Below, piece after piece: positions 3,498 through 34,429 of a stretch of 36,222 nucleotides of DNA (positions are counted from its first letter, which is position 1; each line of letters starts with the position of its first letter). A program made the position numbers and the translations under genes. Under the pieces are notes generated by a model. It searched no databases, had not been told where the DNA came from, and was given only the letters and a program-made list of their open reading frames with translations. The stretch is from a bacterium. Its GTDB lineage: Bacteria > Verrucomicrobiota > Kiritimatiellia > RFP12 > UBA1067. The stretch is taken from NCBI GenBank assembly GCA_025360845.1, contig JANYBJ010000030.1, positions 1 to 36,222 of the forward strand, read 5' to 3'.

Positions 3498-5309
3498 CTA
3501 GTCGAACACGCTCAGATCCCACGTGTTGGCCCAGGTGACGGTGAAGCCCTCGCCCGTGAAGCGGACCGGCAGCCAGACGTAGCGGCCGTCGATGGCGTTG
3601 TCGGGGTTCCAGATGTCGAACAGCGCGATGAAGGCGTCGCGCTTGCCCTGCACCGGAAGGATGCAGGTGCTTTGGCCGCCGAACGTTTTGTCCGGGCCGA
3701 TGCCGTTTGCGGGGTTGACGCCGACGCAGGGGTTGCCGAGTTCTTTCCAGGGTCCCCAGATCGATGAAGCCACCGCAGCCCGCGCCGCGTTGGGTGCCCA
3801 GCCGGTGCAGCCGGAGCCGATGAAGTAATACTTGCCGTCGCGCTTGCAGATCGCGGGGGCTTCCATGAGGCGGTCTTCGAACACGCGGATGAACTTGCCG
3901 CCCGGCGTGAGGTAGTCGTCGGACAACTGCGCGATGTGTAGCGTCTTGTTGTCCTCCGACGCGTAGAGGTGATAGGCCTTGCCGTCGTCGTCCACGAACA
4001 GGGTCTGGTCGCGCGCCATCGAGCTGTCGGGCCGGAAACTGCTGACGAAGGTGAACGGGCCGGTCGGCTGGTCGGCCACAGCCACGCCGCTGCGGGCCGC
4101 GCTGTACCCCTGCCCTTTGAGTTCGAGGTGGAACCACATGACGTACTTGCCGGTCTTGGCGTTGAAGAGCACCTTCGGGCGTTCGAGCACGCACGCTTTC
4201 GTGATGTCGCTCGCGGGATCGTCGGACACGGCCAAGGCGATCCCCTCGTCCTTCCAGTTGGTGAGGTCGCGGGACGAGTAGACATGGACGCCCACCTGCG
4301 CCTCGTTGCCGGCCTTGCCCCCGATCTTGTGTTCGCCGTACCAGTAGTAGACGCCTTCGCGCCAGAGGATGCCGCCGCCGTGGGCGTTGATGTGGACCCC
4401 GCGGTTGTCCGGCCAGAGCCTGCCGTTCTCGAACGACAGCCGGCGCGGGATTTCGTTGGTACACAAGGGCAGCTCGCGGCTCGGCTCGTTGCCGAAGCCG
4501 GTCTCCTGGATGCGGTCGGCACCGAGTCCGATCCGCGCGAAGGAGGTGCTGCCGGGCGCTTCGACCAGGCCTTGTAGCGTGATGTGGTGGACGCCCTTGC
4601 GGTATGCGTAGCCGCCCGCGTGGTCGTGTCCGGCGAGCCATGCGACCACGCAGGGCGCGGCGGCGTCCAGCACGGCCAACACGGGCTCCGGCTTGGACAT
4701 GTGGTTGTTCTCGGCAGCGGCTTTGATTAAGGGGAAGTGGCAGAAGCAGACGACTTTTTCGCCGGTCTGCCGGGCCTGGGCGAGCGTCGTGCGGAGCCAG
4801 TCGAGCTGCCCGTCGCTCATGACCCCGTATTCCGCGTCGTTGCCGTCGAGCACGACGAAGCGCCAGCCTTCGGAAGCGGGCACGGTAAAAGTGTAGTAAA
4901 AGCTCTGCAGGCCGAGCCGCTGGCGCAGGTTCTCCTTGCCGGCCGTCTGGCAGTGGTTGCCCACGACATGATACTTCGGCGCGGTCAGGCGGTTGAAGAC
5001 CGAAAGCACGCTGTCGAGGTCGGCCGCGGAGGCGACGGCGTTGGTGGCATAGCCGTCGATGGTGTCGCCCAACTGGATCACGAAGTCGAGGGGTTGCTTA
5101 TTCAGCACTTCGACGCACTGCTCCAGACGCGACAGGGAGCCGCGGTAATCGCGCGAGACGCTTCCCTGCTTGTCGCCGTATTGGATGTCCGCGATGACGC
5201 CGAAAGCGGGCTCGCGTCCGAGGAGAACCTGCCACGGCCACATGCAGCAGCCTAACAAAAAAAACATCCCTGCCGTGATCAGCGGGGGCCTGAAGAAGCG
5301 TCTGCGCAT
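3498..5309 (-). CDS. Fusion of calcineurin-like metallophosphoesterase (Mn-ADPRibase-like) and glycoside hydrolase family 43 domain
   Basis: 603 aa; N-terminal signal; FGVIADIQYGD, GDTIDGY, GNH, FCHFPL, GHDH metallophosphoesterase motifs; then VHINAHGGGILWREGVYYWYGEHK, GH43 five-blade-propeller-like. Confidence 0.85.
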   Translation of the reverse strand: MRRRFFRPPLITAGMFFLLGCCMWPWQVLLGREPAFGVIADIQYGDKQGSVSRDYRGSLSRLEQCVEVLNKQPLDFVIQLGDTIDGYATNAVASAADLDSVLSVFNRLTAPKYHVVGNHCQTAGKENLRQRLGLQSFYYTFTVPASEGWRFVVLDGNDAEYGVMSDGQLDWLRTTLAQARQTGEKVVCFCHFPLIKAAAENNHMSKPEPVLAVLDAAAPCVVAWLAGHDHAGGYAYRKGVHHITLQGLVEAPGSTSFARIGLGADRIQETGFGNEPSRELPLCTNEIPRRLSFENGRLWPDNRGVHINAHGGGILWREGVYYWYGEHKIGGKAGNEAQVGVHVYSSRDLTNWKDEGIALAVSDDPASDITKACVLERPKVLFNAKTGKYVMWFHLELKGQGYSAARSGVAVADQPTGPFTFVSSFRPDSSMARDQTLFVDDDGKAYHLYASEDNKTLHIAQLSDDYLTPGGKFIRVFEDRLMEAPAICKRDGKYYFIGSGCTGWAPNAARAAVASSIWGPWKELGNPCVGVNPANGIGPDKTFGGQSTCILPVQGKRDAFIALFDIWNPDNAIDGRYVWLPVRFTGEGFTVTWANTWDLSVFD

Positions 5310-5345
5310 AATTTCCCCTCGTGGCCCTTCGGGCGGCTGCCGGTT

Positions 5346-6341
5346 TTACACCCAGCGCATCACCAGGGCGCCCCACGTGAGGCCCGCGCCGAAGGCGTCG
5401 ATGACGAGCACGTCGCCTGTGTTGAGGCGTCCCTGCTCGACCGCCTCGCAGAGCGCGATCGGGATGGTGGCGGCCGAGGTGTTGCCGTAGTTTGCGATGT
5501 TCACAAAGACTTTTTCGGAGGGGAGATCCAGCCGCTTGGCGACCGCATCGATGATACGGGTGTTCGCCTGATGCGGGATCAGGAGGTCGACCTCTTTCGA
5601 AGTCAGGCCTGCGCGGTCGAGCACGTAGACGGCACACTCCGCCATGTTGCGCACCGCCTGTTTGAAGACCTCGTTGCCCTGCATCGTGGTGAAGCGGCCG
5701 GTCTGGACGCCATCCGCATCCGTGAAAACCCGGCAGCCGCTGTTCGGCAGACTCAGAAGATCGGTATAGTTGCCGTCGCCGCCGAGCTTCATGGCCAGCA
5801 CGCCGTCGGTGTCCGAGTGGTGGGCGCTGAAGATGGCCGCGCCCGCGCCGTCGCCGAACAGGATGCAGGTGTCGCGGTCCTTCCAGTTGATGATCGAGCT
5901 GTTCACCTCGGCGCCGATCACCAGAACATGCTTCATCAGGCCGGCCTTGATCATGCCCCAAGCCAGGCTCGCGCCGTACACAAAGCCGGAGCAGGCCGCG
6001 CTGATGTCCAACACGCCCGCGTGGCTCGCGCCGAGTTCCTTCTGGACGAGGCAGGCGACCGACGGGTAGACGGTGTCTGGCGTGGAGGTGCCCACGAGAA
6101 TCAAATCGATCTGGTCCGCCGTCAGGCCGGACATTTTCAGGGCCTCCGCCGCGGCCCGCGCCGCGAGGTGCGACGTATACTCGCCCGGCGCGGCGATGCG
6201 GCGCTCTTTGATGCCTACGCGCTGAGAGATCCACGCGTCGCTGGTGTCGACCATCTTTTCCAGGTCCGCGTTGGTCAGACGCTTTTCGGGCAGCGCTTTG
6301 CCGACGCCCGAAATGTTAGCCGTTATCTTTCGCACGCTCAT
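5346..6341 (-). CDS. fabH: 3-oxoacyl-[acyl-carrier-protein] synthase III
   Basis: MSVRKITANISGVGKALPEKRLTNADLEKMVDTSDAWISQRVGIKERRI; DISAACSGFVYG active-site Cys; IPHQANTRIIDA; ANYGNTSAATIPIAL. Confidence 0.95.
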   Translation of the reverse strand: MSVRKITANISGVGKALPEKRLTNADLEKMVDTSDAWISQRVGIKERRIAAPGEYTSHLAARAAAEALKMSGLTADQIDLILVGTSTPDTVYPSVACLVQKELGASHAGVLDISAACSGFVYGASLAWGMIKAGLMKHVLVIGAEVNSSIINWKDRDTCILFGDGAGAAIFSAHHSDTDGVLAMKLGGDGNYTDLLSLPNSGCRVFTDADGVQTGRFTTMQGNEVFKQAVRNMAECAVYVLDRAGLTSKEVDLLIPHQANTRIIDAVAKRLDLPSEKVFVNIANYGNTSAATIPIALCEAVEQGRLNTGDVLVIDAFGAGLTWGALVMRWV

Positions 6342-7184: not shown

Positions 7185-9140
7185 CTAGCTCAAGGTCAGG
7201 GTGACGACGGTCTGCCATCCGGGCACTCCAGAACTGTTACAAGCGAGCACCTTGTAAGCCGCAGCTCCAGAGGGCATGCCCACGGCGATCTCTGTTCCGT
7301 ACACCGCACCACAGAGCACCTGGGCAAGCTTGGCTTTGCAGGCCGACCCATCCATATAGGGTATGACCATCTCGCGAAGCTGGAGCGTCTGCGCCGCCGC
7401 GTTGCCCGACGTGGCGAAGGCGATGGCTGCGGGGTTGATGTCCACGAGGTGCGTGCGGGAACCGCTGTCCGCCGCCTCTACGGCAAAGCGCTTCTGAAGA
7501 CATGAGGGCGTGCCGTCCGCAACGCGGTCGTTTGGTGTTCCTGAAGCGCCGTCGATCTGGTTGCCGTCCGAAGCGTCGGCGTTATCGCGTCCAAGACGCA
7601 GGTAGGAGTAGCGGCGGCCCCGCGCAGCGCGGTAAACGGCCATCAGGTTGTCAGCCTCAAGGCGTCCGCAGGTGCCCGTCTTGACGGTCACCTTGCCGCC
7701 GCCGATGTCATAGGTCACATCCTGAACCACCGCCGCCATCGTCGCCCACTCGGCAAGCCCGCCCGTGCAGGAAAGGAGCTGCGCCAGACCAATGCCGAAG
7801 TCGCACTCTTGACCGTTAAACGTGACCTGACCGTCGTAGTGCAGACGGTTCCAACTCGCGAATAGCGCTGCGGCCATGCCTGTCGGAACAGGCTCCGGCT
7901 CTACCCACTCGGTCATCTTGCGATAGGTGCGCGTGACGGCATCGGTGGAGGTGCAGGTGAAGGTGATATCTTTTGAGCCCTCGTCGAGCACATGTGTCGT
8001 GTCGGTCGACTTGATCTTGTAAGACACGCGCACAGTGAACGTGTCGGACTCGGAGTGCTTCATGGTCCATGCAGGAACGGAGCCGTTGATGAGACGTGCC
8101 GGGTAGTTGTGGCTGCCGGTACCGCGTGACATGGACACGACAGACCAATCGCCGGACGTGAGCTGGGATAGCCAAGGGCAGAGTTTGGCGAGCAGCGTTT
8201 TTCCGGCTGACGATGTCCAGTCGGACGGGTAATCCTCGACCTCCACCGCCTGTTGAATAAAGGAGGCGTGGACGCCGTCCAGATCGTAGACCAAAGCCAC
8301 GCGCCTGGCATCGGTTGAAGCCCCGGCCGTCTCGGTGACGCGGCTCTTGACCGTGCGGCCGTCCCAGTCGCCCGTCCAGCGGTAGATGATCATGATTCCC
8401 GGAACCCGGATATCATAGCGCGGCGTGAAGCTCGCGCCCGTGGCAGCGCCGTTGACGAGCGCCCGCGACACGGCCGTCATGGCGGCAGGATCTGTGACGT
8501 TCAGAGCGGGAACGTAAGCGCCCGAAACCTGATGGTCGTAATCCCACCAGAGCACGTAATCAGGCGTGTAGCGGAGCATGGCGACAATGGCGTCCCATAC
8601 CTTGATGTTGTTGCGCTCGTCGAAGGGCACGGTCACGCCCGCCGCGATGGCGCCGATGTCGATGCCGACGCCCCGCGAGACGGCGTAGGCTGCGGCGTGG
8701 TTGATCACGCCGCCGGAGGCTAGGCGCGTGCCGTTGTTATCCTCGCCCAGCACCACGGTGGGCTCGTAGATCGTGGAGGCGACGCCCGCGCCCGTGGTGT
8801 ATGCCCACTCTTGTGAGTAGTCGCAGAGCTGGAGGGCGTAGGAAGGACCGAGGGCCGTGTACGTGATCGCCTGCGGCCCGCCGCCTTCGGCCTGACGCGG
8901 GGTCATTTCCACCGTGCCGACAAACACGCAGCGGTCTGTGGGGATGGCCTCGCTGTCTCTGCGGATCAGGGCGACCTTGGTGGCGAAAGGCCACGTCGGA
9001 GCGGCGACCCAATCGTTCGCCTGGGTGAAGACCAGCGAGTCGACGCCGTTGGCGCGGAGATTGAGAAGACAGGACGTGACGCCGCTGGCGGAGAGCAGGA
9101 CGGGCGCGTCGGTGTTCTTTTTGATGAGGTAGGAGATCAT
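7185..9140 (-). CDS. Putative tail tip/baseplate hub protein
   Basis: 651 aa ORF directly downstream of the tape-measure candidate; assignment by position and size. Confidence 0.55.
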   Translation of the reverse strand: MISYLIKKNTDAPVLLSASGVTSCLLNLRANGVDSLVFTQANDWVAAPTWPFATKVALIRRDSEAIPTDRCVFVGTVEMTPRQAEGGGPQAITYTALGPSYALQLCDYSQEWAYTTGAGVASTIYEPTVVLGEDNNGTRLASGGVINHAAAYAVSRGVGIDIGAIAAGVTVPFDERNNIKVWDAIVAMLRYTPDYVLWWDYDHQVSGAYVPALNVTDPAAMTAVSRALVNGAATGASFTPRYDIRVPGIMIIYRWTGDWDGRTVKSRVTETAGASTDARRVALVYDLDGVHASFIQQAVEVEDYPSDWTSSAGKTLLAKLCPWLSQLTSGDWSVVSMSRGTGSHNYPARLINGSVPAWTMKHSESDTFTVRVSYKIKSTDTTHVLDEGSKDITFTCTSTDAVTRTYRKMTEWVEPEPVPTGMAAALFASWNRLHYDGQVTFNGQECDFGIGLAQLLSCTGGLAEWATMAAVVQDVTYDIGGGKVTVKTGTCGRLEADNLMAVYRAARGRRYSYLRLGRDNADASDGNQIDGASGTPNDRVADGTPSCLQKRFAVEAADSGSRTHLVDINPAAIAFATSGNAAAQTLQLREMVIPYMDGSACKAKLAQVLCGAVYGTEIAVGMPSGAAAYKVLACNSSGVPGWQTVVTLTLS

Positions 9141-21918: not shown

Positions 21919-23444
21919 TTCGCGGGCTCCTTTAAAGCGCCTTGCAGGAAGGCGCTGGACATGACCTTGTGATAGACCTCGGCCTGCGCGGGATCGGCGA
22001 GCATGGTCGCGGCGATCTGCGGCAGCTCCCCGCGCAGCTTACGGGCCGCCGCCTGCATGCCGGGCAGGTCTTTGGCGGTGAGCACGCGGGCGAGCGCCAG
22101 GGCGAGCGGCCTGTTGGCGACGGCCTGCGCCTGAGCGAGCGCGTCGGCTCCGGATTGCATGAGCGCCTCGGCGGCCGGATCTGATGCGCCACGGCTGCAA
22201 ACGGCGCGGAACAGCGAGGGCGCGGCTCCGGGAACGGAAGGGGCCGCGGGCCGCGCGAACCCCTTGATCGTGTAGCCGGTCTCTTTCTGGACCTGCGCGG
22301 GGTCGATGTCAAAACCCGCGTTGACGAGGGAGGTGACGTTGGCGACCACCTTGCCGATGTCCTTTTCCTGACGCGCCCGCAGGTTGAAAAAGGCCTGCGC
22401 AGGTCTGCCGGGGAAGCGTGCGGCGAGCGCGCGGCGGTCGTACTGCTGATGCAGGGGCTTGGAGACGTTACGCGCCACGCGCCGGATGATCTGATCCCAG
22501 GAAGACATGTGGGCGGAGCCCGCCAGCGTGCCGCTGCCCGCCTCGGTCAGCATCGTCAGCAGACCGCCCGTTCCCGCGAGCACCAACTGCTTCTGGAGCC
22601 ACTCAAGCCGAAGCTGGAACGGCTGCGTGCCGCGCGCCTCCGAAAGCGTCTTGACGTCAGATCCTGCGGGCAGCGCCCCGCTCGCGGCCTCCGACGCGTC
22701 CGCGGCGAGGTCGCGGTACTCGTCCTCTTTTCCGGCGGGAACCTTTTCCGGCATGATGATGAACACGCCGGGGATGCCGTAAATCTCTACGTAGGCGTCC
22801 CAGTCTTTTTCGGCGACCGTAGAGCGCACGTATTTGATCAGGCCGATTCGGTTCACCGGGCGTTTGGACGTGAGCAGAATGTAATCCTCCGGATTCAATC
22901 GATTGGCGAGCGGCATCGAACAGAATGAGGCGGTGGAGGCGTTGGGGTTCCATGCCCATTCTTGCCGCGATCCGTTGCGCACCATGTTCCACTGCGGAAG
23001 GATTTCGAAATGCTCAAGAGACCAATCATCGGAGAGATGCGGCTGCAAGTGAGAGAAGCCACGGAACCGCGCCATGACGAGGTGCTCAATCGCCTCGGGA
23101 AGGTTGTCGCACTGCGCATACGATTCACGCAGGAACGCGGCCTGTTCGTCGGCAAGCACCGAATCAAATCCGAGTGAGTCCTCGGGGATGGTCGCAATCT
23201 CATCCTCGCAGTCGGCAACACCAGAAAGCGTCCTCTCAATGATCACCATCAGGTCTGGGTCGGTGGCCTCAATTCCGGTCTCCGCTCCGTAGAGCCACTG
23301 AAGATCGGACATGATTCCGCGCTGCGCCTGTTCCATCAGCATGACGGCACGCGGCATGTTCAGGTGGCGGAGAGGGTTGCTGTTGTCGCGCCACTTGTTC
23401 ACGGCGGTGAGCGTGCGCATGAGCTGCTGTGCCGATGTCTTCAT
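21915..23444 (-). CDS. DUF935 / Mu gp29-like portal protein
   Basis: MKTSAQQLMRTLTAVNKWRDNSNPLRHL...; IGLIKYVRSTVAEKDWDAYVEIYGIPGVFIIMP. Confidence 0.85.
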   Translation of the reverse strand: MKTSAQQLMRTLTAVNKWRDNSNPLRHLNMPRAVMLMEQAQRGIMSDLQWLYGAETGIEATDPDLMVIIERTLSGVADCEDEIATIPEDSLGFDSVLADEQAAFLRESYAQCDNLPEAIEHLVMARFRGFSHLQPHLSDDWSLEHFEILPQWNMVRNGSRQEWAWNPNASTASFCSMPLANRLNPEDYILLTSKRPVNRIGLIKYVRSTVAEKDWDAYVEIYGIPGVFIIMPEKVPAGKEDEYRDLAADASEAASGALPAGSDVKTLSEARGTQPFQLRLEWLQKQLVLAGTGGLLTMLTEAGSGTLAGSAHMSSWDQIIRRVARNVSKPLHQQYDRRALAARFPGRPAQAFFNLRARQEKDIGKVVANVTSLVNAGFDIDPAQVQKETGYTIKGFARPAAPSVPGAAPSLFRAVCSRGASDPAAEALMQSGADALAQAQAVANRPLALALARVLTAKDLPGMQAAARKLRGELPQIAATMLADPAQAEVYHKVMSSAFLQGALKEPAK

Positions 23445-24901
23445 TCGAAGTCTCTCCATTCGTTTTTGCGCAGGCGCATTTCCGCGCGGCGAGCGCGGCG
23501 GGCGACGGCCCTGCGGCCGCGACCGGCGCGGGGAGGCATGTTGCTGACCACACCCTCTTCGGCAGCCGAGCACGCCAGCATGGACGCGACGAACTCATCG
23601 CAGTGAGAGGTTTCGCCCTCGTTATCGAACGCGGGCATATAGACGCGCAGGCCTCCGTTGCTGGCTAGCAGTTTCTCGGGGCCGTTGATGTCGGCGCGAA
23701 GCTGATCTTCCGCGGGGATGTAGATGCGCTTCCCCTCGTAGCGGTCGCGCAGGGAGACGCACAGCTCGGTGCGCCTGCCGCTCTCAAGGTTGACCGCGTC
23801 CACGCGTCCGGGGAAGTCGCGCGTCAGATGCTCGGCCATGTGCATGCCGAGGCCCGTCGCGTCGATGGCCATGCGGCTGATTCGCGGCTGGGCACGGTCA
23901 GTCAGACGTATTCGTATCCAGTTCTCCTGCGTGTCGAACTCGACGTTGTGCCACTTCTCGCGGCGGGCCAGATAGAGCGAGACGCCCAGCTCAAGATATT
24001 CATGCCAGGCGGAGGCATGCAGCTTTCGGGCTACATCGTATCCTCCGAAGCGAGGGGCGGCGGGATTCTTCGCGGCGATCTCCGCGATCACGACGGGGTC
24101 AAGCTCGCACGGAGCGATGAGCTGGAGCGTGATCAGCTTGCCAGCGGCGTCATCCGTGACGCACAGGAACTGCGTGTTGTAAGCGGACTGCGTGCGGCAG
24201 CTCGCACGCACCTTCTTGACGAAGTCCTCGCGTGTCTGGTTGCGTCCGATGGCCTCGTTAATCTTTTCGACGAGGCCCTGCTCGACGGCGTCGGGAAGCG
24301 TGACGCGGTGTAGCCGGATGCCCATTGGGTTATCCTTCTTGGCCGAAACAACCAAGCGGGCGAACGGGCTCGACGATGTTCCGTTGACGCGGTACGCGCT
24401 GACGATCTCAAGCTGCCCGCCCCAAAGGATGCAGGGATAGGCCATGTCGATCAGCTTGCCGGAATCGTCATGCAGATCGGCCTCGTCGAGAAACACGTCG
24501 CCGCCTTTGCCGGCAAACGCCTCGGGTTTGGAACTCAGCGAGACGATGCGAGCTCCGTTGGGGAACTCGACCACATACGCCTTGATGTTGCGCTCGGGGT
24601 CGAGCATCTCGACGTTCTCGCCGTACATGCCCTTGGCGACAACGTTGCCGAGCTCGCACCATTTTCGGATGTAATCGCGGATCAGCTCTTGCGCGGTCAT
24701 CTCGTCGCGCGAACTGACCCACTGCGTGAAGCCCCGGCCGCGATCCATACACTTGCGCCACATGCGGTAGCTGCTGGCGTATGTGAAGCCGACGCGGCGG
24801 GACTTCTCGGCGACCTTGTAGGGGCTGTCGTCGCGAATCCAGTCGAGCTGGTACGGCAGGAAGTAGGATGCCTGCTGCGCTATGGCTTGGGTGGCGCTCA
24901 T
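23441..24901 (-). CDS. Terminase large subunit (Mu gp28-like)
   Basis: 486 aa; YQLDWIRDDSPYKVAEKSRRVGFTYA Walker-A-like, FLDEADLHDDSG Walker B, IDATGLGMHMAEHL nuclease-type motif. Confidence 0.9.
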   Translation of the reverse strand: MSATQAIAQQASYFLPYQLDWIRDDSPYKVAEKSRRVGFTYASSYRMWRKCMDRGRGFTQWVSSRDEMTAQELIRDYIRKWCELGNVVAKGMYGENVEMLDPERNIKAYVVEFPNGARIVSLSSKPEAFAGKGGDVFLDEADLHDDSGKLIDMAYPCILWGGQLEIVSAYRVNGTSSSPFARLVVSAKKDNPMGIRLHRVTLPDAVEQGLVEKINEAIGRNQTREDFVKKVRASCRTQSAYNTQFLCVTDDAAGKLITLQLIAPCELDPVVIAEIAAKNPAAPRFGGYDVARKLHASAWHEYLELGVSLYLARREKWHNVEFDTQENWIRIRLTDRAQPRISRMAIDATGLGMHMAEHLTRDFPGRVDAVNLESGRRTELCVSLRDRYEGKRIYIPAEDQLRADINGPEKLLASNGGLRVYMPAFDNEGETSHCDEFVASMLACSAAEEGVVSNMPPRAGRGRRAVARRARRAEMRLRKNEWRDFE

Positions 24902-25461
24902 TTTTTGACACCGAGAATGCGGTCAACCTCGTTGGCGACCTGAGACGGATCGGCGACATTGACCTTGCCCGCTTCGGCGAGCTGCTGCCGCAGTGCGGCG
25001 ATATGAGCGGCCTGCTCGGCGTTCGCCTTGCGGGCCTCTTCTAAATCCTTTTCGGCCTTGAGCAGGCGCTGGAGCTTCTCGCTGTCGCGGGAGTCGGCGT
25101 TGTAATCGAGAGACAGGCTGGCGAAGGTCTTGATAGCCTCTTTGTCGTCGCTGGTGATGGCCTGCCAGAAGGCGGCGCGGAGGGCGTTGTTGGCTCGGGC
25201 GTCGAGGGCTCGGGCGTCGAGGTCTTTATCGAACTGCTCGCTGGCCTTGATGGCGCTGCGCAGATTGGCGCGGGCACGGGACTTGGTTTCGCGAGCCCAC
25301 CAGCGGCGCAGGCCGGAAATGGAAACCTTGATGCCGAGGTTCTTGGAAACCCACTCCACACCGACGCGGTAAGCGCCGGGCCGCAGCACCTCAAGCAGTT
25401 CCTCTTCCTGCTCGGGCGTGATGCCTGTCAGCTTCGATAGCGGGCTGGGTTTCTGGTTCAT
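24898..25461 (-). CDS. Putative terminase small subunit
   Basis: 187 aa; HTH-like N-terminus plus long coiled coil, overlaps the large subunit start. Confidence 0.6.
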   Translation of the reverse strand: MNQKPSPLSKLTGITPEQEEELLEVLRPGAYRVGVEWVSKNLGIKVSISGLRRWWARETKSRARANLRSAIKASEQFDKDLDARALDARANNALRAAFWQAITSDDKEAIKTFASLSLDYNADSRDSEKLQRLLKAEKDLEEARKANAEQAAHIAALRQQLAEAGKVNVADPSQVANEVDRILGVKK

Positions 25462-25478
25462 GGTTTAGGTCTCGTTTT

Positions 25479-25503
25479 CAAAAACGACACGGTGTCGTTT
25501 TTG
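25479..25503. repeat. 25-bp palindrome P1 CAAAAACGACAC-G-GTGTCGTTTTTG
   Basis: Perfect 12+1+12 dyad; identical to P2. Confidence 0.95.
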
Positions 25504-25506
25504 GAT

Positions 25507-25785
25507 TTAGAACGGTGAAGGTGCCGGTTCGCCCTCGTGGCTGCGTGTCTCGCGGACAACGGGAGCCTGATTGTTGTAGCAGCTATTACCTCCCTCTAAA
25601 GACTGGATCACCTTGCCCAAGCGCATGCGGGCATCTTCGAGGTGGCGGTATGCGAGCGTCACATTTGCGTGAGCCTCGTGTGCGTCGATGCCGATTCGGG
25701 GAAAAGGAACATGCGGATGCAGGTCTTTAACCTGACGCGCGATGTTGTCGATCTTCTCGCGTAAACTGTTGATCTTGTCTTTCAT
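25507..25785 (-). CDS. Small phage protein, Acb2/Tad1-hairpin-like (candidate anti-CBASS/anti-Thoeris sponge)
   Basis: MKDKINSLREKIDNIARQVKDLHPHVPFPRIGIDAHEAHANVTLAYRHLEDARMRLGKVIQSLEGG...; compact two-helix protein with LxxArmxlGkvi-type second helix. The ORF is solid; the function is tentative. Confidence 0.5.
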   Translation of the reverse strand: MKDKINSLREKIDNIARQVKDLHPHVPFPRIGIDAHEAHANVTLAYRHLEDARMRLGKVIQSLEGGNSCYNNQAPVVRETRSHEGEPAPSPF

Positions 25786-25799
25786 GGATTCTCCATTTT

Positions 25800-25824
25800 C
25801 AAAAACGACACGGTGTCGTTTTTG
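25800..25824. repeat. 25-bp palindrome P2 CAAAAACGACAC-G-GTGTCGTTTTTG
   Basis: Identical to P1 on the other side of the same gene. Confidence 0.95.
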
Positions 25825-25825
25825 G

Positions 25826-26077
25826 TTACAGCAGTTTCCCGGAGTCGGTGATGACCCACTGGAGCTGGGCCGGATTGAAACGGTCGGCGAGGCGCTGCAC
25901 GTAGCCCGCGCGTTCGAGGGCGTCGATGTGGCGCTGCACGTCGGAGACGGCGCAGGGCGTGCGCGTGTAGCCGTTGACGTAGACGGCGAGGGCGCGGGTG
26001 GCGAGGGGCTTGCCCGCGCACTCCTGGAGCACGGTGACGATGGCCTTGGATACGTCGGGGTCGATGTCGATGGGCAT
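25826..26077 (-). CDS. Small winged-helix-like DNA-binding protein
   Basis: 83 aa; VLQECAGKPLATRALAVYVNGYTRTPCAVSDVQRHIDALERAGYVQRL. Confidence 0.5.
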   Translation of the reverse strand: MPIDIDPDVSKAIVTVLQECAGKPLATRALAVYVNGYTRTPCAVSDVQRHIDALERAGYVQRLADRFNPAQLQWVITDSGKLL

Positions 26078-26083
26078 CGGGGG

Positions 26084-26476
26084 TCACTTCCTTCCGTTGA
26101 TGGTGCGGACGAGGAGCACCTCAAGTGTGCTCTTGATGCTGGTGAGTTCGCCGGAGATGCGCGAGCAGGTTTCGGCGGCGGCGTTGACGCGGTTGTAGAT
26201 CTTGCCGTTCTCCTCGGTGATCAGCTCGCGGAGCATGGCCTGCCCGGCCTCCAGCTCGTCGAGGCGGCGGTCCTGCTCGTGTTTGCAGGCGCCGATGCAG
26301 TGCTCGATGGTGGCCACGCGGGAGGCGATGCCGTTGGTCGCGGCGGCCTGTTCCTCGGGGCTTGGCTTGCCGCGCAGGGTGAACCACGCCTTGGCCGCGC
26401 CGTTGAAAAGCCACACGCAGAAAGTGAGGCAGCCGAGCCACGCGGCGATGTCGACGGGAGGGGAGAAAGAGGTCAT
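26084..26476 (-). CDS. Membrane-anchored coiled-coil protein (possible holin/spanin-type)
   Basis: 130 aa; N-terminal TM WLGCLTFCVWLFNGAAKAWF then coiled coil. Confidence 0.45.
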   Translation of the reverse strand: MTSFSPPVDIAAWLGCLTFCVWLFNGAAKAWFTLRGKPSPEEQAAATNGIASRVATIEHCIGACKHEQDRRLDELEAGQAMLRELITEENGKIYNRVNAAAETCSRISGELTSIKSTLEVLLVRTINGRK

Positions 26477-26538
26477 GCGGGGACCTTTCCGGAGAGAGGG
26501 TTAACACGAAGACACGAAGACGGTAAGCAGAGAGATTT

Positions 26539-26630
26539 CAAAAACGCAGCCGCTGCGTTTTTGGAAATCGGCAAAAGCGCAACGGCTGCGTTTTTGGGAA
26601 AACGGCAAAAACGCAGCGGCTGCGTTTTTG
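26539..26630. repeat. Palindromes P3 (26539-26563), P4 (26572-26596), P5 (26606-26630)
   Basis: CAAAAACGCAGC-C-GCTGCGTTTTTG; CAAAAGCGCAACGGCTGCGTTTTTG; CAAAAACGCAGC-G-GCTGCGTTTTTG. Confidence 0.95.
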
Positions 26631-26639
26631 AAAACGGAG

Positions 26640-26760
26640 CGTGTCCCAATGCACGCGACGACAGGCACGTCGTTGCATTTCGGGAGCGGAGGGTAACAGC
26701 CTCCGGGGCACGTCGCTGACCCTGTTGTGGGTCAATCCCTGCCGCAGTACCGACGTGAGT
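26640..26760. ncRNA. Candidate structured non-coding RNA between palindromes
   Basis: Consecutive dyads: AATGCA-cgcg-ACGAC-aggcac-GTCGT-TGCATT (26648-26679), CGGAGG-gtaacag-CCTCCG (26687-26705), CACGTCG...CGACGTG (26709-26757) enclosing TGACCC-tgttgt-GGGTCA (26717-26734); no credible ORF. Confidence 0.35.
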
Positions 26761-26798
26761 TTCACGGCGGATATGCGAAGTTGAAAAGAATGGGAAAC

Positions 26799-26925
26799 CA
26801 AAAACGCGGCGGCTGCGTTTTTGGAAATCTCCGAGCGGGAAAGAGCAGCCGACAAGGGAGCAAAGCAAAAACGCGGCGGCTGCGTTTTTGGAAACGGCGG
26901 CAAAAACGCGGCGGCTGCGCTTTTG
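26799..26925. repeat. Palindromes P6 (26799-26823), P7 (26866-26890), P8 (26901-26925)
   Basis: CAAAAACGCGGCGGCTGCGTTTTTG twice, and CAAAAACGCGGCGGCTGCGCTTTTG. Confidence 0.95.
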
Positions 26926-26981
26926 AAGAAGTCTTGAAATCGGTCTTGCCTGTGATCCGCTTTTCATGGGGCGAATCATAG

Positions 26982-27000
26982 GCCATAACTCCGTTATGGC
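26982..27000. promoter_or_regulatory. Perfect dyad GCCATAAC-TCC-GTTATGGC upstream of the late operon
   Basis: 8-bp stem perfect inverted repeat in gene-free DNA. Confidence 0.35.
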
Positions 27001-27093
27001 GGGTCTACTGCATGCCGTGCGTGCGCATTGATTTTTTGGGGAAGGCTGTTAGCCGTTTAGGCTGTCAGGCTGTTAGCCGGGGGAAGGGGATTT

Positions 27094-27275
27094 CAAAAAC
27101 GCGGCGGCTGCGTTTTTGGAAACGGGCACAAAAAAGCCGCCTTGCAAACGGGTTGCAGGGAGGCCGCTTTCAAAAACGCAGCGGCTGCGTTTTTGGAAAC
27201 GGGCACAAAAAAAGACCGACTTGCAATCGTGTTGCAGGACGGTCGTTTTTCAAAAGCGCAATGGTTGCGCTTTTG
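27094..27275. repeat. Palindromes P9 (27094-27118), P10 (27171-27195), P11 (27251-27275) in a roughly 78-bp tandem arrangement
   Basis: Units 'palindrome-GAAACGGGCACAAAAAA-hairpin(TTGCAANCGNGTTGCAGG)-' repeated twice, closed by P11. Confidence 0.85.
27124..27249. terminator. Two terminator-like hairpins between P9, P10 and P11
   Basis: AAAAAAGCCGCCTTGCAAACGGGTTGCAGGGAGGCCGCTTT and AAAAAAAGACCGACTTGCAATCGTGTTGCAGGACGGTCGTTTTT. Confidence 0.5.
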
Positions 27276-27294
27276 GTTTATCTACGTGGAAGAA

Positions 27295-27456
27295 CTATTT
27301 TGATTGGCCTTCGTGGAGGTAGCAATATCCCGAAGCGTTGTTCGTGGTGTTCTTGCAGCGGGCTCCCTTTTGGGTGACGCCCTTACACTGCACGGCGGCG
27401 GCGATGGCAGCCGCCGCGACCAGTGACGCGCACAGCGCGATGATGGCTTTCTTCAT
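27295..27456 (-). CDS. Small exported Cys-rich peptide (DUF5763-like CxxxTxxGxxC...C..H)
   Basis: MKKAIIALCASLVAAAAIAAAVQCKGVTQKGARCKNTTNNASGYCYLHEGQSK; ATG at 27456 with GGAGAG SD. Confidence 0.65.
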   Translation of the reverse strand: MKKAIIALCASLVAAAAIAAAVQCKGVTQKGARCKNTTNNASGYCYLHEGQSK

Positions 27457-27474
27457 ACCGTCTCTCCTGTTTAT

Positions 27475-27499
27475 CAAAAGCGCAATGGTTGCGCTTTTG
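27475..27499. repeat. Palindrome P12 CAAAAGCGCAATGGTTGCGCTTTTG
   Basis: Identical to P11; the pair brackets CDS 27295-27456. Confidence 0.95.
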
Positions 27500-27501
27500 G
27501 A

Positions 27502-27765
27502 TTAGATCTGTGAGCGGGCGTCGATTGTGGCCTGAAGAGGATCGGTCGCTTCGGACGATTTAGGTACATCAGATCGACATGATCCGGCAGGATCGGAAAG
27601 CCTCTGATGAATCCCGACAAGCACGCTGATAATCTTCATAGATTCGCGTTCCCGGTCAATTCCCTGACGCTTCAATTCGTTGTAGATCAAAACGGGAATG
27701 ATGGTCAGCCACACGCATCCGGAGAAGGCGGCTATACCCAAAACGACAGAAACGAACTCGCCCAT
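27502..27765 (-). CDS. Small membrane protein
   Basis: MGEFVSVVLGIAAFSGCVWLTIIPVLIYNELKRQG... Confidence 0.5.
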   Translation of the reverse strand: MGEFVSVVLGIAAFSGCVWLTIIPVLIYNELKRQGIDRERESMKIISVLVGIHQRLSDPAGSCRSDVPKSSEATDPLQATIDARSQI

Positions 27766-27784
27766 AAGGAACCACTTTTTTTGG

Positions 27785-27991
27785 TTATCGTGTAATGATA
27801 ACGCTGTAGACCCAAAAGGCGAGTCCAATAATAAAGACGACAGAAGCTGAAACACCGATCAAGTGTATCGGGTCTCTCATGTTAATCTCTCCGTCGTATT
27901 TCGGTTTAACCGGATCTCCACATGAGGGACAAGAGCGGGCGTCCGGTGAAACGCTGTTTCCGCATGCGCGGCAATGGATCAGACTTTTCAT
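27785..27991 (-). CDS. Zinc-ribbon plus TM protein
   Basis: 68 aa; CRACGNSVSPDARSCPSCG then IGVSASVVFIIGLAFWVYSVI. Confidence 0.65.
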   Translation of the reverse strand: MKSLIHCRACGNSVSPDARSCPSCGDPVKPKYDGEINMRDPIHLIGVSASVVFIIGLAFWVYSVIITR

Positions 27992-28011
27992 AACGATCTC
28001 CTTTCAGACGT

Positions 28012-28419
28012 CTATGCAGTTTGCTCTTTGCCACCAGAGCGCGCACTCGCTGCACTCCTGGTGGGAAGGCGCAGCGCCACTGATCGCCCCACAGCTAGCG
28101 CTTTAGATAGATTATTAATGGTTTCATTTGCAACCGCAAGTTGCCGTTCTAAATCGGCAATCCTTAAGGCTGATGCGCTTTCTTCTGCGGATACAGGATC
28201 CGGTTTTTGCGGGTGTTTCCCATTCAACAACCATTCAGGCGTTGTATTCAGTTCGGTAGCTAATCTGATTAGCAACTCGTGGGCTGGCGTTCGGTCTCCT
28301 TTTTCAATCTGCGTCAGATAAGGACGTGAAATTCCTAACCGCATGGCAAGATCTTTTCCCTGCAATCCGGCTGCCATGCGGGTTCTCCTGATACGCTCGC
28401 TAAAAGAATTTGCATCCAT
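28012..28419 (-). CDS. XRE-family phage repressor
   Basis: MDANSFSERIRRTRMAAGLQGKDLAMRLGISRPYLTQIEKGDRTPAHELLIRLATELNTTPEWLL HTH; divergent to the early operon. Confidence 0.85.
   Translation of the reverse strand: MDANSFSERIRRTRMAAGLQGKDLAMRLGISRPYLTQIEKGDRTPAHELLIRLATELNTTPEWLLNGKHPQKPDPVSAEESASALRIADLERQLAVANETINNLSKALAVGRSVALRLPTRSAASARSGGKEQTA
28258..28274. promoter_or_regulatory. Intragenic operator copy AGCTAATC-T-GATTAGCA
   Basis: 15/17 match to the early-promoter operator, inside the repressor CDS. Confidence 0.6.
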
Positions 28420-28433
28420 GCTAACTTTCGCCC

Positions 28434-28462
28434 TTGATCTGCTAATCCGATTAGCATATGAT
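28434..28462 (+). promoter_or_regulatory. Early promoter with operator as its spacer: TTGATC-TGCTAATCCGATTAGCA-TATGAT
   Basis: -35 TTGATC 28434-28439, exactly 17-bp perfect palindrome 28440-28456, -10 TATGAT 28457-28462. Confidence 0.75.
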
Positions 28463-28506
28463 ATCTGCAAATCACGGTGATTTAGACAACACGAGGTTAA
28501 CGCCGA

Positions 28507-28710
28507 ATGAATCGAAAAGTCAACAGAGAAAAAAAGGCCGGGCGTCCGGCGGGGCGCAGGACGATGTATCCGGGGATCACGGCGTTCTGCCGGGAGCACG
28601 GGTATTCGCACCAGCATGTGCGGCGGGTGCTTTTGGGAAGGGAAACGTCGGCGCGGGTGCGCCGGATGTGGGCGGCGTGGAAGATGGGCGGGGGGAAGGC
28701 AGTGCGTTAG
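28507..28710 (+). CDS. Ner/Cro-like small HTH protein
   Basis: 67 aa; GITAFCREHGYSHQHVRRVLLGRETSARVRRMW. Confidence 0.6.
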   Translation: MNRKVNREKKAGRPAGRRTMYPGITAFCREHGYSHQHVRRVLLGRETSARVRRMWAAWKMGGGKAVR

Positions 28711-28747
28711 TGCGTCAGTGCGTTAGTGAAAGAGAAAGGGACAGGCG

Positions 28748-28960
28748 ATGATCATCAGAATCGGACGGAGAGAGGAGCGGGCGTGGCGGTGCTTCAGGGA
28801 CATGCTGGGGCTGGCCTCGGACTACATGAACGAACGCAACCAGTTGCTCGGCGAGCGGAAGGCGTTTGCCGCTGAGGCGCTGATTCACCGGAGCCGGGCC
28901 GACAATCTGGCGATGGAGAACGACCGGCTGCGCAGGCAGTTGGCGGCGGCGGCGAAGTAA
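28748..28960 (+). CDS. Hypothetical small coiled-coil protein
   Basis: 70 aa ORF in the early operon. Confidence 0.5.
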   Translation: MIIRIGRREERAWRCFRDMLGLASDYMNERNQLLGERKAFAAEALIHRSRADNLAMENDRLRRQLAAAAK

Positions 28961-30180: not shown

Positions 30181-30371
30181 GCCTGTTCGACGCGCTGATG
30201 GCTTGCAGCGACCACCATGAGAACGCCGCGCTGACTCTGGAGCGGAATCTCCAGACCGCACCGGAGGGCACGGCGTGGAAGGCCCGCAGACGCCTGCGCA
30301 AGCATACGGCGTTCGCCTTCGCGTGCGCCAAGGCGGCTGAGGTAGTGGCCAAGAACGGGGGTACCAAGTGA
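30177..30371 (+). CDS. Hypothetical small protein
   Basis: MSLFDALMACSDHHENAALTLERN..., ATGA coupling. Confidence 0.5.
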   Translation: MSLFDALMACSDHHENAALTLERNLQTAPEGTAWKARRRLRKHTAFAFACAKAAEVVAKNGGTK

Positions 30372-31231
30372 TTAACCTTCACGACTTCAGCGCCATCTCA
30401 ATCAGCATCAGCGGCGGCAAGGACTCGCAGACGATCCTTGGCGTGGTTATGGGCGAGGTGCTTAGGCAGCAGTACACGGGCAAGGTGATCGCGATCCACG
30501 CCGACACGGGCGCGGAGTGGCCCGAGAGTCTGCCGCATTGCCGCATGCTGTGCCAGCACTACAGGATCAACCTGCACGTCGCCGTGCCTCATAGAGCGCT
30601 GCCCGACCACATTGAGCGGCGCTGCCGCATGATGGCAGTTCAGGAACCGCGCGGAAAACCCGGCTGGCCCAGCCCAGCGCAGCGGTACTGCACGAGCGAC
30701 TGCAAGCGCAACCCCATCGATAAGGTAATCCGAGCCCAGTTCCCGGCAGGCAAACCGGGGTGGCCGTCTCCGAGCTGCCGCTACTGCACGAGCCATTGCA
30801 AGACCGATCCCATCAGCAAGGTCGTGCGCGGCGAGTTCCCGGCTGCGATGGGGGCGAGCGTTCTGGTAGTGACCGGAGAGCGGCGCGAGGAGAGCGCCCA
30901 CCGCCGCAAGCTGCCGGAGAGCGAGGTTGACGCACGTTTGTCGGCTGGCACGCGCAAGGTGACCAAGTACCGCCCGATTCTGGACATGACTCTGGATCAG
31001 GTTTGGAGACACATCAGCGAGTCTGGACTTCCGCGTCACGTAGCCTATGACCGTGGCAATGAGAGGCTGAGCTGCGCACTGTGCGTGATGGCGACCGAGA
31101 ATGATCTGCGCAACGGTGCCGATGCGCGGCCCGATCTCGCCGAGCGCTTCCTGCGCATCGAACGCGAGACAGGGTTCACCTTCCGCCACAAGAAGTCGCT
31201 GGCGGATATCCTGAAAGGCGGTGGTCAATGA
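30368..31231 (+). CDS. Phage PAPS-reductase-like (adenine nucleotide alpha hydrolase) protein
   Basis: SISISGGKDSQTILGVV PP-loop; HADTGAEWPESLPH; RYCTSDCKRNPI; VTGERREESAHR. Confidence 0.85.
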   Translation: MINLHDFSAISISISGGKDSQTILGVVMGEVLRQQYTGKVIAIHADTGAEWPESLPHCRMLCQHYRINLHVAVPHRALPDHIERRCRMMAVQEPRGKPGWPSPAQRYCTSDCKRNPIDKVIRAQFPAGKPGWPSPSCRYCTSHCKTDPISKVVRGEFPAAMGASVLVVTGERREESAHRRKLPESEVDARLSAGTRKVTKYRPILDMTLDQVWRHISESGLPRHVAYDRGNERLSCALCVMATENDLRNGADARPDLAERFLRIERETGFTFRHKKSLADILKGGGQ

Positions 31232-31545
31232 ACACACTCACCGATTACCGGAAGCCGCGCCCGCATTACGGGCTGGCCGATGCGGGCTGGCGGGCGAGGA
31301 CGCCGTGGGAGGTCGTAGAGGGACGGTTTCAGCGGCGCTACATCATCCGGCGCAAGTACGCGGCCTCGCGCTGGCGCAAGGCGGAGATCTTCCGCCACGC
31401 GGGCGTGTGGTCGTGGCGGGTGCTGGAGCGGACGGGCGGCGACCCGTGGCGGGAGATCGCGCGGGCCAGCCGGATCGGCGGGCACACGCATTTCACCGCG
31501 CAGTCGGCGATGCCCTACGCCGAGCTGGCGGCGGTGACGAGGTGA
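31228..31545 (+). CDS. Hypothetical protein
   Basis: 105 aa, ATGA overlap with the PAPS-reductase-like gene. Confidence 0.55.
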   Translation: MNTLTDYRKPRPHYGLADAGWRARTPWEVVEGRFQRRYIIRRKYAASRWRKAEIFRHAGVWSWRVLERTGGDPWREIARASRIGGHTHFTAQSAMPYAELAAVTR

Positions 31546-31547
31546 GG

Positions 31548-31715
31548 GATGAAGGATGAGGGATGAGGGATGAGGGATGAAGGATGAAGGATGAGGGATG
31601 AGGGATGAGGGATGAAGGATGAGGGATGAAGGATGAAGGATGAGGGATGAAGGATGAGGGATGAAGGATGAGGGATGAAGGATGAAGGATGAAGGATGAG
31701 GGATGAAGGATGAAG
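31548..31715 (+). repeat. 24 tandem copies of heptamer GATGARG
   Basis: 168 bp read as 24 units, each GATGAAG or GATGAGG. Confidence 0.98.
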
Positions 31716-31739
31716 GCGGAAGGATAAAGGAGACAGGCG

Positions 31740-33170: not shown

Positions 33171-33677
33171 ATGGCAAGAGTCAAGACGGAGACGTTCTCC
33201 GACCGGGTCGAATTCGACGCGGCGGTAGACCAGATCGCCCGCAAGGAAGTCCAGCGGCGCAAGCTGGAGGCGGATCGCGACGCGCAGATCCAGAACATTC
33301 AGCAGGAGCATAACCCGGCCATCGACGCGCTCAAGACGGAGATAGACGCACTGGTGACCAAGGCGGAGGGCTACGCCAAAGACAACCGCGCCGAGCTGCT
33401 GCCGACCGGCAAGCAGAGCGCCGAGACGCCCCTCGCCAACTTCGGCTTCAGGTGGGGGAACAAGACGCTGGTGCTGCTGAGCAGCCGGTGGAACTGGGAC
33501 GGTGTGATCGCAAGTTTGCGCAAGGCGGGGCTCGACGGGTTCATCCGGGTCAAGGAGGAGGTGGCGAAAGACGCGGCCAAGGATGAGCTAAGCGAGCCGG
33601 TTCTCGCGCAGCACGGCATGCGCATCAAGCAGTCTGAGACGTTCTGGGTGGAGCCCAAGACGGATGTGATCGGTTAA
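33171..33677 (+). CDS. gam: Mu Gam-like host-nuclease inhibitor
   Basis: 168 aa; helical N-terminus, GKQSAETPLANFGFRWGNKTLVLLSSRWNWDGVIASLRKAGLDGFIRVKEEVAKDA, typical Gam end. Confidence 0.85.
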   Translation: MARVKTETFSDRVEFDAAVDQIARKEVQRRKLEADRDAQIQNIQQEHNPAIDALKTEIDALVTKAEGYAKDNRAELLPTGKQSAETPLANFGFRWGNKTLVLLSSRWNWDGVIASLRKAGLDGFIRVKEEVAKDAAKDELSEPVLAQHGMRIKQSETFWVEPKTDVIG

Positions 33678-33703: not shown

Positions 33704-34429
33704 ATGAAGCATACCAAGAATGACGCGGTGGCGACGGTAAAGAATGTGCAGCCGATTGACGTGGCGAGCATGACGGCGATGATCGCGGATGACCTGAACC
33801 GCGCCGAGGTGGGCAAGTTCAGCATGCTGCGGGCGGGCGTGGGGCTGCTGTGCTGCAAGGCGATGAGCGAGCACGGCGAATGGGAGGCGCGGCTGATGGA
33901 GCTGTGCCCCGGAAAGAGCCCGCGCACGTTGCAGACCTACATGAAGGACGCGAGGGATTGCCTGGACGCGCGGGGGATCGCGCCGGAGGCGGCGTGGGGC
34001 GAGCTGGCGAAGATCGACGTGGCGCAGGTCGGCAGCCTGATGATCGCCGCGCCCGCGCAGGCCCAGCTCGGCACCGGGGAACCGGAGCCGCAGGAGCCCG
34101 CCAAGCGCGGCAGGAAGTCCAGGGCGGAAGCCGCGCCAGCCCCGGAGGCGAGCGCCGCCGTGTTCTCGCAGATGCTGATCGACTTCATCCAGCAGCGGAA
34201 GTCGGCCAAGGCGAAGTACACCGAGCCGACCAAGCCGCTGACGAAGCGGGAGAAGATGGATGCGGCGGTGGACGAGGCCGCCCGCGTCGTGAACATCGCT
34301 GCGGATTACGTCGCCAACGCGACGTGGGCGCTGCTGCCCGACGACAATCTTGAGAGCACCTGGGCCGGGTTCAAGGCGACGGCCGACAAGCTGGGCTCCG
34401 AGATGAAGGCCCGCAACAGGAACAAGTAA
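33704..34429 (+). CDS. DUF3102-like phage protein
   Basis: 241 aa; KFSMLRAGVGLLCCKAMSEHGEWEARLMELCPGKSPRTLQTYMKDARD; AT-hook-like KRGRKSR. Confidence 0.5.
   Translation: MKHTKNDAVATVKNVQPIDVASMTAMIADDLNRAEVGKFSMLRAGVGLLCCKAMSEHGEWEARLMELCPGKSPRTLQTYMKDARDCLDARGIAPEAAWGELAKIDVAQVGSLMIAAPAQAQLGTGEPEPQEPAKRGRKSRAEAAPAPEASAAVFSQMLIDFIQQRKSAKAKYTEPTKPLTKREKMDAAVDEAARVVNIAADYVANATWALLPDDNLESTWAGFKATADKLGSEMKARNRNK

Follow-up and report, generated by a model that had tools for sequence, protein, structure and literature searches.

Phage sponge proteins are proteins that soak up bacterial alarm molecules. Closest to the small gene studied here are Acb2 of T4 (Vs.4), a hexameric CBASS sponge of about 90 aa (PDB 7uq2, 8h2j), and Tad1, an anti-Thoeris sponge of 125-142 aa with an N-terminal beta-sheet domain (SBSphiJ7 Tad1, PDB 7uav/8kbb). 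In Vs.4, A66, A73 and A77 lie at the hexamer interface, R79 contacts cGAMP, F82 is a stacking residue and the ligand residues Y8/H11 are N-terminal (PMC10097602). Low similarity scores are usual in this hairpin superfamily: even the Acb2 proteins of T4 and Pseudomonas, whose structures are both solved, reach no better than E = 0.026 against each other. For the surrounding genome the comparison is Pseudomonas phage B3, which has its late genes on one strand, a repressor, and early genes including a DUF3102 gene on the other.

The DNA analysed (the window, 36,222 nucleotides) is one contig, which from its sequence is assigned to a B3/Mu-like transposable phage. As in B3, late genes (here on the minus strand) and early genes (plus strand) are on opposite strands, with an HTH repressor of the Cro/C1 type at about 28.0-28.6 kb. 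The genes needed for the following were:

23441..24901, minus strand: terminase large subunit of the Mu gp28/B3 type (phrog_2, 2e-20; B3 gp28, 32% identity, E = 4e-61)
24898..25461, minus strand: 187-aa protein in the Mu/B3 gp27 (small terminase) position, placed by gene order only (blastp not significant)
25507..25785, minus strand: P0001, candidate cyclic-nucleotide sponge of 92 aa, Acb2/Tad1-hairpin-like (translation, PF24729, AlphaFold2, signature AYRHLEDARMRLGK)
25826..26077, minus strand: 83-aa winged-helix-like protein in the Mu/B3 gp26 position, placed by gene order only (weak HTH matches)
33171..33677, plus strand: Mu Gam-like end-protection protein, a marker of transposable phages (phrog_491, E = 4.8e-23)
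33704..34429, plus strand: DUF3102-like protein of 241 aa, putative palindrome partner (own HMM, E = 4.2e-9)

P0001 separates the two genes that occupy the gp27 and gp26 positions; in B3, gp26 and gp27 overlap by 4 nt with no gene between them. The product of 25826-26077 had no convincing blastp similarity to B3 gp26.

The open reading frame of P0001 starts with ATG and ends with TAA, and the helix quoted in the earlier note was found in its translation. An AlphaFold2 model (pLDDT 85) is a two-helix hairpin like Acb2, with helices 2-20 and 35-64 at high confidence, and lacks the N-terminal beta-sheet domain of the longer Tad1. The only Pfam family matched at E < 0.1 was PF24729 (Acb2_Tad1_hairpin) with E = 1.3e-4 and 22.6 bits, which is under the curated gathering cut-off of 27 bits; of 38 diverse relatives, 24 matched PF24729 at E <= 0.1, the best at 1.2e-5. 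In the second helix, P0001, T4 Acb2 and Tad1 have in common the ungapped signature A...[LC].[DE]A.M.[LA].[KR] (A...L.[DE]A.M.[LA].[KR] for the likeness to Acb2), which reads AYRHLEDARMRLGK in P0001 and AITKLEEALMWLNK in Tad1 and was detected in just one unrelated frame among the 12,685 six-frame ORFs of the loci examined. As this pattern was defined after the families had been seen, it supports but does not prove a common ancestry. In its register, A45 and A52 of P0001, both conserved, correspond to the hexamer-interface residues A66 and A73 of Vs.4, and K58 to R79, while A77 aligns with L56, as in Tad1. The stacking residue F82 is replaced by Q61, a conserved Gln, and a counterpart of the short N-terminal Y8/H11 segment is absent; conversely, the highly conserved RHLEDARMRLGK block and a C-terminal GGxSxYDK motif of the P0001 subfamily are not seen in Acb2. 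Foldseek ranked Vs.4 second for P0001, but with E = 2.2 and a TM of 0.35 and without discriminating between helical hairpins, and Vs.4 was absent among the matches listed for the better model of a relative. When the subfamily was compared by HMM-HMM with only the T4-type Acb2, the match was not significant, PHROGs and PADLOC profiles gave nothing useful for P0001, and a PDB sequence search gave no match for P0001 and coiled coils only for the subfamily profile. Since Acb2 does not stand out from other helical hairpins in fold searches, and counterparts of F82 and Y8/H11 are absent, P0001 is classified as a remote relative of the Acb2/Tad1 hairpin superfamily, most likely with a sponge-like mode of action, and outside Acb2 or Tad1 proper. 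The resemblance of the second helix to Acb2/Tad1 claimed in the earlier note is supported by the Pfam profile and the family signature, and weakened by a score below the cut-off and the missing stacking and N-terminal residues.

The earlier note had also placed P0001 exactly between two identical palindromes, which was confirmed by coordinates and translation. A scan allowing up to three mismatches bore out that their stem variant (ACAC/GTGT) is unique in the window: the 25-bp CAAAAACGACACGGTGTCGTTTTTG has two exact copies, 25479-25503 and 25800-25824, and no others (none expected by chance, from 100 shuffles). Each copy lies 3' of a minus-strand stop codon, only a few bases away from it. Ten further palindromes with the same outer arms, CAAAARCG...CGYTTTTG, and other stems (expected 0.01) were detected at 26539-27499, so that the array comprises twelve 25-bp palindromes of 7 kinds within 25479-27499, with the repressor on one side and the late genes on the other:

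25479..25503, no strand: perfect palindrome with ACAC stem, 3' of the P0001 stop
25800..25824, no strand: identical to 25479..25503, 5' of P0001, immediately 3' of the 25826-26077 stop codon
26539..26630, no strand: three tandem palindromes (26539-26563, 26572-26596, 26606-26630)
26799..26925, no strand: three palindromes (26799-26823, 26866-26890, 26901-26925)
27094..27195, no strand: two palindromes (27094-27118, 27171-27195)
27251..27275, no strand: palindrome with CAAT stem, 3' of gene 27295-27477
27295..27477, minus strand: second small gene, DUF5763-like, up to 60 aa, with its own identical palindrome pair (PF19067, E = 1.2e-5, just below the cut-off)
27475..27499, no strand: CAAT palindrome identical to 27251..27275, upstream of gene 27295-27477

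Stem pairing is kept across the copies (97% of cells paired), with four pairs showing changes on both sides. The array palindromes are confined to one contig of the 5.2-Mb assembly, and of 390 genomes searched for the ACAC palindrome, to see whether it is a repeat of the host or its phylum, only the window's own had one. REPINs and other small dispersed palindromic repeats resemble the array in their several copies of short palindromes; unlike them, it occurs in one phage contig only, and an origin through REPINs and a Y1 transposase was rejected, as the host has Y1 genes but none of the palindromes outside that contig. Next to the array, 27502-28414 is of low GC (48-50% vs 63%) and contains small genes and the HTH repressor.

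Palindromes of this class were also found elsewhere. Outer-arm scans of viral contigs gave many perfect ones, most of them in frame within genes, with DUF3102 dominant. DUF3102 genes were gathered with a query ending before the palindrome site, to avoid selecting on the palindrome itself. In the resulting 62 distinct loci (188.8 kb), which are not fully independent although their stems differ, 16 perfect palindromes have arms of at least 10 bp, and all but one of them (15 of 16) occupy the same codons, immediately downstream of those for the RxAQRFM helix. The stems at this position differ between phages (loci L177-L256), the arms have a mean of 6.6 bp compared to 3.8 bp in synonymous-codon shuffles, and arms of 11-15 bp are present in 13 of the 62 genes. 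The in-frame palindrome was observed in the named phages B3 (L287:7893-7918), where it is the sole palindrome of the array class, PhiKM (L286:28404-28429) and Mae-JY22 (L285:11507-11532). Mae-JY22 has two more near-identical copies (L285:8584-8609, 8629-8654) about 2.9 kb off, on the side of the regulatory region that faces the late genes, which is also the side of the window's array. In two contigs the ACAC palindrome occurs twice, once within a DUF3102-Dam gene and once within another gene. No description of a DUF3102-internal palindrome was found in the open-access literature searched. The DUF3102 palindrome is a simple and testable feature of transposable phages including the well-known B3, and the palindrome array is a more novel lead than the sponge-like gene. 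As a separate observation, a cluster of very long perfect palindromes (arms of 13-18 bp, AAAAACG cores) was seen at L270:9062-9537 (IMGVR_UViG_3300048835_000303), in and around a gene whose product is ParB-like by eye.

None of 48 P0001 relatives is bracketed by palindromes. From this, and from the palindromes in DUF3102 genes, the most plausible reading of the window's palindromes is a phage-level array of sites or hairpins, which P0001 merely adjoins. On balance we favour P0001 as a sponge-like phage accessory gene with an Acb2/Tad1 hairpin, its two flanking palindromes being members of an independent twelve-copy array.

What the array does may be explained in several ways. Tentatively, the DUF3102-like protein of the phage could recognise the palindromes, as sites or as DNA/RNA hairpins, much as an operator or centromere is recognised, and P0001 would merely be located within the array. 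The shared codon position of 15 of the 16 perfect palindromes, above synonymous-codon shuffles, argues for such sites, as do the in-gene copies of B3, PhiKM and Mae-JY22 with the extra late-side copies of the latter, and the two contigs with a second ACAC palindrome. The window itself has a DUF3102-like gene, 33704-34429 being the sole significant six-frame match to our own HMM of DUF3102 segments, with no Pfam match for its product. Against this, that gene has no internal palindrome, the window's palindromes being 6 kb away, the stems vary among the copies, and three contigs (L068, L075, L070) have such palindromes but no DUF3102 detected by Pfam or HMM. The DUF3102-like protein of the window possibly reads the array, a link that we infer. 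Somewhat more speculatively, B3/Mu-type phages may couple a diversifying palindromic site to DUF3102, usually as one in-gene copy and sometimes with extra ones, and in the window phage the site would have left the gene and multiplied to twelve copies between the early and late operons; DUF3102 would then be a putative sequence-specific regulator, partition or genome-organising factor, whose specificity differs from phage to phage.

We consider it rather unlikely that the palindromes as a whole are intrinsic transcription terminators between genes. The succession of A-tract, short stem and U-tract would suit terminators, as would the fold energies (z -3.1 to -4.9) of the four copies that bracket the two small genes, the position of these four directly behind stop codons, and the both-side changes at 4 pairs. 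However, three copies are in tandem, eight are in one non-coding stretch, a terminator scan picked up only 1 of the 12, and other phages carry the same palindromes in frame within coding genes. Termination could be the role of the four copies that immediately follow stop codons, but is unlikely for copies inside genes.

An even less probable explanation is that the identical pair marks a mobile cassette that brought P0001 in, by recombination between identical stem-loops similar to PeSL shuffling. Two genes each having an identical pair of their own stem would fit this; P0001 and its palindromes look inserted because B3 gp27 and gp26 overlap at this site, and the GC content of P0001 is 55% vs 63% for the window. 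Yet the relatives have no palindromes beside the gene, and within the array adjacent identical copies are only mildly unusual, as three identical neighbours were observed among 12 copies of 7 kinds and 1.0 was expected (p = 0.06; p = 0.008 for both outermost pairs being identical). Close relatives of the window phage, sought by terminase in viral contigs, were not found, nor was a related phage with an empty site. The PeSL cassettes of T4-like phages also have stem-loops between small accessory genes, but no promoter was found at the window's sites, and these form many tandem copies and recur inside coding genes elsewhere; a simple consensus scan of 24800-28800 gave one promoter-like site, at 28434, and none at the palindromes. 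That the palindrome pair marks a cassette boundary is not supported. The moron-like anti-defence cassette proposed in the earlier note consequently loses the pair, which is unmatched in the relatives, accounts for 2 of 12 array members and is of the same kind as palindromes inside unrelated genes elsewhere; the accessory character of the gene is supported by its low GC and the varied neighbours described below.

Returning to P0001 as a sponge-like accessory gene, 54 loci on viral contigs and a further 5 on genome contigs were found to contain relatives, whereas P0001 and its relative L012 gave no tblastn match in 50,697 named phages even at E <= 1. The alignment, in which the block RHLEDARMR is invariant, an Arg of helix 1 nearly so and a GGxSxYDK tail shared, assigns P0001 to a distinct "RHLEDARMRLGK" subfamily. 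The neighbours of 42 relatives vary (P22-type portal in 4, cytosine methylase in 2, and terminase, HNH, ERF, capsid E and Mu gp36), which suits an accessory gene, and together with the low GC they support this character. In phage L011, the relative (4878-5246) overlaps by 4 nt a Tad1-like gene (5243-5554) that follows directly and matches solved Tad1 at 2e-11; such a tandem of two hairpin-superfamily genes is what an operon with two sponges would be expected to show. The place of P0001 beside the terminase genes might suggest a small protein of packaging or morphogenesis, but this role is improbable: weak Foldseek matches to phage small terminases and the 4 portal neighbours point to it, but the neighbourhoods are diverse (portal, methylase, HNH, ERF, capsid), P0001 matches none of the packaging families of PHROG and polar residues are invariant along one helix.

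The function of P0001 as a sponge, that is its oligomer, ligand binding and anti-defence role, we infer by analogy with the characterised members. P0001 would probably assemble through its second helix into an oligomer, which would probably bind and sequester a cyclic nucleotide or a similar nucleotide alarm signal of host defence, and the host defence effector would then probably stay off; the flanking palindromes are neither needed for nor specific to P0001. A search of the host assembly, a 92%-complete MAG, that covered SMODS-type CBASS cyclases found none, which speaks against a sponge. Should P0001 prove to be a sponge, it would add a RHLEDARMRLGK subfamily that is unmatched in the named-phage collection searched and is carried by uncultivated phages and by genomes of Verrucomicrobia, Kiritimatiellia, Bacteroidetes, Fibrobacter and Thermodesulfovibrionales. 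Its ligand site could then not be the classical one of Acb2, which could point to a different defence signal.

Two minor observations were made in the rest of the window. Between two early genes, 31536-31730 consists of a tandem 7-base unit, GGATGAR, over about 190 bp, and a PAPS-reductase-like gene at 30368-31231 contains an internal 65-nt duplication with 75% identity (30683-30747 and 30779-30843).
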